This document shows, one piece after another, positions 62,268-63,338 of a DNA stretch of 64,000 nucleotides. Position numbers and translations under genes: made by a program. Numbering within the stretch: position 1 is the first letter of the stretch; each line of letters opens with the position of its first letter. The stretch is from Candidatus Neomarinimicrobiota bacterium (GTDB lineage: Bacteria > Fidelibacterota > Marinisomatia > SCGC-AAA003-L08 > TS1B11): assembly GCA_022560655.1 (NCBI GenBank), contig JADFSS010000002.1:1-64000 (forward strand), written 5' to 3'. Under the pieces are notes generated by a model. It worked only from the letters and a program-made list of their open reading frames with translations. It did no database searches and was not told the DNA's origin.

Positions 62268-63338
62268 ATGCCCCCATCAGGGGCGACTGAGTTTGGAGAG
62301 GAGTTGAGCCGCCCCCGCGGTCTGCTGGTCCCATGGGCTGAATTCCTGCTCTATGGTATGTTGATCTCCGTCGCCTCACCCGCCAGTCTCCAGGCGCAGA
62401 TAATTGATGGCGATCCGGTCTACGATGTGCTGCCCCGTGACGCCATCCCGGCTATCGTTGATCCCGAGTTTGTCACCGGCAAAAAGGCCCGCCGTATCAT
62501 GGCTGATTGGGAACAGGTAATCGGAATCGTGGGGCCGGAAGGCACGGCCGTGGCCTATTCCACTTGGCACCTGGATCACCATGAGATCGTCGATGACGTG
62601 GTGGACGGCCTCCCACTGGCTGTCACTTGGTGACCGCTCTGCTTCACGGGCATCGTGTATGTCCGCACCGTGAATGACCAGACGCTGACCTTCGGCGTCT
62701 CCGGCAAGCTCTGGAGAGACGCCATGGTGATGTACGACCGCGAAACCAATTCCACCTGGGCCCATGTCACAGGCAGGGCGATCACTGGCCCGTTGCTGGA
62801 TGCCCAGCTGGAAACGTATCCGGCCCTGCAGACCACCTGGAAGGCCTGGCTGGCCGCCTATCCCGAGACCAAGGTGTTGAAGAAGCCGGTGCTCTACGGT
62901 TCCTCCTATGCGCGCTATAACGCCGATCCCCGGCGCCAGGGCATTCACGGCCGCCGAATGGGCAGATCGTTGCTGCCCGCCAAATCCAAGGTCATCGGCT
63001 TCCAACTTGAGGAAAGCCCCTACGCGGTTCCCGTGCAGGCGTTGCTGCCCGGCAGCCTGACCGAACTCTCTGTCGCCGACGTACCCTTGTTGATCTTCAC
63101 CGATGTGGCGGGCGAGGGGGTCACCCTCTGGCAGCGGGAATATGAGCAGGAAGTCCTCGACTTTACGCTGGTCGACAAGGATCAGCCCCGCGCTCGCACC
63201 GGTGATGGCCGGTCGTTCGATCTGGTCACCGGGGAGGAGGCCGGCGGTGGTCCACCACTTACCCGCATCCAGACCACAAAAGCCTACTGGTTCGGCTGGC
63301 ACAATTTCTACCCGGAGACGCAGGTCGTATCCCCCTGA
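62268..63338 (+). CDS. DUF3179 protein with in-frame UGA, candidate selenoprotein
   Basis: One frame of 357 codons with a single TGA at 62631-62633 (codon 122). Before it: a signal-like N-terminus ending near LQAQ, then GDPVYDVLPRDAIPAIVDPEF and WHLDHHEIVDDVVDGLPLAVTW. After it: PLCFTGIVYVRTVN, TFGVSGKLWRDAMVMYDRETNSTW, and DUF3179 features to the C-terminus. Family members have a V-T-(Y/F)-C-P-L-C motif here, so UGA replaces the first Cys exactly, giving U-x-x-C. The downstream 235 codons remain open and conserved, which argues against a decayed gene. DUF3179 function is unknown; a redox role is suggested. A sequencing error or nonsense mutation remains possible. Confidence 0.8.
62643..62674 (+). 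promoter_or_regulatory. SECIS-like hairpin after the in-frame UGA
   Basis: GGGCAU (62648-62653) pairs with AUGUCC (62659-62664), one G-U pair, closing the loop CGUGU with G second. Below it UUCAC (62643-62647) pairs with GUGAA (62670-62674) with a 5-base 3' bulge. The loop G is about 21 bases after the UGA, inside the spacing commonly used for bacterial SECIS searches. An alternative 7-bp stem UUCACGG/CCGUGAA also exists. Confidence 0.6.

Follow-up and report, generated by a model that had tools for sequence, protein, structure and literature searches.

A probable selenoprotein gene of the DUF3179 family in a Neomarinimicrobiota genome, with an in-frame UGA at the conserved cysteine

In the window, the whole 64,000-nucleotide stretch of DNA that was analysed, we identified a DUF3179 gene whose single internal TGA is very probably read as selenocysteine (Sec). 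We put the probability that it is a genuine selenoprotein gene at about 0.95. The gene had been proposed as a candidate selenoprotein in an earlier note on this DNA, and the proposal is supported by a complete Sec pathway, conservation of the TGA and conservation of a bSECIS-like hairpin. The UGA aligns to a conserved Cys and is kept in independent genomes, two features by which bacterial selenoproteins are recognized. Positions of the gene and its elements are collected in Table 1.

Table 1. Elements of the predicted selenoprotein gene, in positions of the window.
Element	Position	Strand	Remarks
DUF3179 gene, predicted selenoprotein	62268..63338	+	frame as in the earlier note; terminal TGA at 63336-63338 is the true stop
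First repeat of internal duplication	62499..62885	+	carries HE and UPLC
His-Glu (H105-E106), invariant	62580..62585	+	51/51 homologues; 15-16 residues before Sec; putative active-site partners
Predicted Sec codon, in-frame TGA	62631..62633	+	residue U122, counted from 62268
U-P-L-C motif	62631..62642	+	C-P-L-T or C-P-L-C in Cys homologues
Candidate bSECIS hairpin CGGGCAU-CGUGU-AUGUCCG	62647..62665	+	7 bp stem
Apical loop CGUGU	62654..62658	+	G at position 2; 20 nt from UGA to loop
Second repeat of internal duplication	62973..63335	+	Cys/Sec motif lost; lacks HE and CPL

The TGA is the sole break of the frame and is followed by CCG CTC TGC (P-L-C). The two open frames described earlier (62268-62633 and 62655-63338) do lie in one frame, split by this codon and resumed with P-L-C; however, the second is already open from 62634, and 62655 merely marks the first GTG beyond the TGA. 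Pfam scanning of the window's open reading frames included nine that contained a single read-through TGA and another that contained four. The read-through product of 356 residues matched PF11376 over the full length of the profile (residues 57-351 on positions 1-292 of 292), scoring 229 bits against a curated cut-off of 27 bits, so the assignment to DUF3179 made from the letters alone holds across the TGA. Residues 1-24, counted from 62268, find no support among relatives. The real start is more likely the TTG at 62304, which is preceded by GGAG at 62295-62298 and would give a neat signal peptide, MSRPRGLLVPWAEFLLYGMLISVASPASLQA-Q (ending LQA-Q).

A phylum-wide PF11376 search covered 245 Neomarinimicrobiota genomes, and a genome scan added a copy from an Acidobacteria MAG. 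Besides the window's gene, we found 16 TGA-containing DUF3179 genes, 15 in Neomarinimicrobiota and the one in Acidobacteria; four other genomes of the same taxonomic family carry the TGA form, and further TGA forms turned up in other families. All 17 TGA-containing homologues have their only in-domain TGA at this one column, which indicates that its position is not due to chance, and the column is Cys in all 38 other aligned copies. The suggestion that the stop falls exactly on the first Cys of the motif is thus borne out, and the Cys-to-UGA column that was to be sought in related genomes is present there: the TGA replaces the otherwise invariant Cys of CPLC or CPLT. The proposed U-x-x-C arrangement is present in 16 of the 17 Sec copies (15 UPxC, one UGVC, with a single UPLA as the exception). 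The V-T-Y-C-P-L-C sequence given earlier as the family norm, in contrast, is matched at C-P-L-C by only three of the 38 Cys copies, the remaining 35 having CPLT (CxxT). Either Cys or Thr can stand as the second motif residue, so that the first Cys or Sec is the key residue.

One of the TGA-containing homologues, G001:C18:58442-59017 (L091), is a DUF3179 paralogue that is shorter than the others and divergent; its TGA falls in this column too, but its motif is U-G-V-C. We found no good hairpin in the same register in this gene, which may represent a second type of Sec protein or may be decaying.

Downstream of the TGA, the candidate hairpin was compared with published rules for bSECIS elements, namely a loop of 3-9 nt, a stem of 4-16 bp, a G in the first two loop positions, a distance of 16-37 nt from the UGA and a minimum free energy at or below -7.5 kcal/mol (PMC13188914, Fig. 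2 legend). With a loop of 5, a stem of 7, a distance of 20 and an energy of -8.3 kcal/mol in isolation, the hairpin agrees with all of these rules. The isolated hairpins of some relatives miss the energy threshold, and the window's own segment, folded freely, prefers a partly different, longer stem. Because free folding of the UGA region gave a stability no better than that of shuffles (z -0.34), we relied on comparative tests. Across 15 distinct sequences, pairing is preserved in 91% of cells, as against 19-53% in slid registers. Compensatory changes on both sides occur at three pairs, and the observed covariation was attained in 2 of 500 shuffles. In the Acidobacteria copy, GGGCAU/AUGUCC is changed to GGGUGU/ACACCC, so that two inner pairs are replaced while the CGUGU loop is kept. 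Among the Sec copies, synonymous identity peaks most sharply at the site of the hairpin, where codons +7 to +12 reach 0.79; elsewhere in the gene it is mostly 0.3-0.5, apart from a smaller peak (0.67) at +70 to +75. Six or seven of the seven stem pairs form in 15 of 17 Sec copies, and all 17 have the loop G. The Cys copies as a class lack this hairpin: at the same offset, only 2 of 38 reach six or seven pairs, most have one to three, and 12 of 38 have the loop G. When codons were shuffled synonymously within single sequences, the folding energy of the 7-bp copies had a modest significance of 0.02-0.05 under genome codon usage, and several 5-6-bp copies were not significant.

The source genome (G000), a Neomarinimicrobiota MAG of 2.33 Mb in 128 contigs and 95% complete, contains all four genes, selA, selB, selC and selD, that the earlier note had named as a check. 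Among genomes with a name, Candidatus Neomarinimicrobiota MAGs are its nearest relatives. Its tRNA-Sec, with a UCA anticodon, scores 65.2 bits, the cut-off being 47. selA lies at C62:2059-3156, with selB directly after it at C62:3216-5060. selD (G000:C7:32972-33940; L107:2464-3561) has one TGA, in GAGUACKL, and thus encodes the Sec form of SelD, a well-known selenoprotein. Like the DUF3179 gene, this UxxK form has an in-frame TGA at the Sec position, although the two proteins are unrelated. Having selA and selB says little within this phylum, where both are very common and 167 of 245 genomes carry selB; in the drafts G003 and G008, whose assemblies are fragmented, no selB scored above threshold. 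By analogy with established bacterial biology, SelD would make selenophosphate and SelA the Sec-tRNA(Sec), while SelB would bind the hairpin and bring Sec to the UGA. The result would be a full-length exported protein rather than a fragment of 121 residues. A separate open frame at G000:C14:34994-35437 (L019) also matches SelD, in its C-terminal half, with a score that exceeds the family cut-off.

In a maximum-likelihood tree, 16 alignable Sec copies fall on one side of a branch with support of 99/94, and the group is present in 100% of bootstrap trees; the G001:C18 copy was too short to be included, and the root is not fixed. Branches within the group are long and reach about 1.1 changes per site. 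The Sec copies may therefore have had one origin, as judged from this unrooted tree.

Two other explanations of the TGA were weighed. For a nonsense mutation, a pseudogene or a sequencing error that struck the Cys codon in a DUF3179 gene of the Cys type, it can be said that TGA lies one base away from TGC or TGT and that the sequence was assembled as a MAG. However, the same TGA recurs across different genomes and families, 17 homologues in all, as one old group with long branches. The frame decay in relatives named earlier as a sign against a selenoprotein was not found, their downstream frames being intact. That the RNA following the TGA is under selection speaks against this explanation as well, and we regard it as highly improbable and already refuted by the conservation of the TGA. 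Reassignment of UGA to Trp or Gly throughout the genome, or low-level read-through without Sec, would also yield a full-length protein. Yet a TGA ends this gene and, at the matching C-terminal position, three close relatives (in G001, G003 and G008); the in-frame TGA replaces only Cys and occurs nowhere else within the domain in the homologues, and the genome has a complete Sec pathway. This leaves reassignment or read-through with a negligible probability, below even that of a nonsense mutation or error, and decoding of the TGA as Sec as the preferred reading.

As to function, the most likely reading, at roughly even odds, is that the Sec-containing DUF3179 protein is an exported, selenol-based redox enzyme. 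Its invariant residues include H105, E106, C/U122, P123, D157 and W164, in addition to structural Gly, Pro, Leu and Tyr residues. Comparison of the N-terminal with the C-terminal half (hhalign probability 99.4, E 5.5e-22) reveals an internal duplication. The selenolate of U-P-L-C could act as the nucleophile and Cys125 as the resolving residue, with His105 and Glu106 nearby; the second half of the protein would then serve as a scaffold without a catalytic residue. The reaction may be an extracytoplasmic redox reaction, possibly the reduction of a thiol, a peroxide or an electrophile.

Alternatively, the protein may be a selenoprotein in which the UxxC pair binds a metal, heme or a Rieske-type iron-sulphur cluster and does not serve as a redox nucleophile. 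The best PDB matches that Foldseek gave for an AlphaFold2 model were Rieske ferredoxins (probability 0.9-1.0, target TM about 0.5), and the spacing D-x-H-x16-[C/U]-x-x-[C/T] resembles the Rieske pattern C-x-H-x15-17-C-x-x-H. The E-values of these matches, however, exceed 0.01, and hhalign gave only weak agreement with Rieske proteins (probability 0.2 for the N half and 15.5 for the C half), placing the Cys/Sec motif off the cluster ligands. The motif reads D-x-H ... U-x-x-C and thus lacks the C-x-H ... C-x-x-H ligands of a Rieske [2Fe-2S] cluster; in addition, Thr, a poor cluster ligand, occupies the fourth motif position in 35 of 38 Cys copies. We consider metal or cluster binding the main alternative, though an unlikely one, and the Rieske relationship, unconfirmed at the motif, a weak lead. 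Equally speculative is a scenario in which the Sec copies form a distinct, obligately selenium-using DUF3179 branch of one origin, with a duplicated fold, perhaps descended from Rieske proteins, in which the iron-sulphur ligands gave way to a selenol active site that catalyzes an undescribed extracytoplasmic redox reaction. The redox enzyme set out above remains our preferred reading.

Whether a Sec form of DUF3179 had been described was left as a question in the earlier note, and the answer is yes. Two reviews list the Sec form as a predicted family with the motif UxxC/T (PMC9312934: MBW1804167.1; PMC13188914: MDJ0986319.1), which lowers the novelty implied for it. It is credited to Zhang and Gladyshev 2007, from an Olavius algarvensis symbiont. 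An NCBI RefSeq product name on a plasmid also reads 'DUF3179 domain-containing (seleno)protein'. Compared by family and motif description only, the listed proteins share with the window's gene the Pfam family and the motif with Sec in first place, but come from another phylum. The sole Cys-type paralogue in the source genome (G000:C40:12331-13272) shares this domain and its invariant HE...CPL core; it is 33% identical to the window's protein and carries CPLT instead of UPLC. Among the papers searched, none was found that pairs Neomarinimicrobiota with selenocysteine; two mention both Marinimicrobia and selenoproteins. As far as we have seen, what is new is a phylum-wide, Sec-only group with a conserved SECIS and an internal duplication whose second half lacks the Cys/Sec motif. 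These observations point to Sec use by uncultured Neomarinimicrobiota in a DUF3179 protein, a kind of selenoprotein that is easily missed because the standard code cuts such genes in two. The conserved Sec position, the invariant HE and the internal duplication offer handles for finding the function of DUF3179.

Searches by sequence against the PDB gave nothing relevant, and an NCBIfam search returned no family. An AlphaFold2 model built from six sequences reached a pLDDT of 75 and a pTM of 0.79. Foldseek also matched an uncharacterised Indivirus protein (E 2e-5, TM 0.35-0.44), from which no function was gained. No specific reaction is supported by close structures or by the gene neighbourhood, in which the neighbours, named from their sequences only, are M16-like peptidases downstream and, on the opposite strand, genes for a TonB-type receptor and a SusD-like protein.
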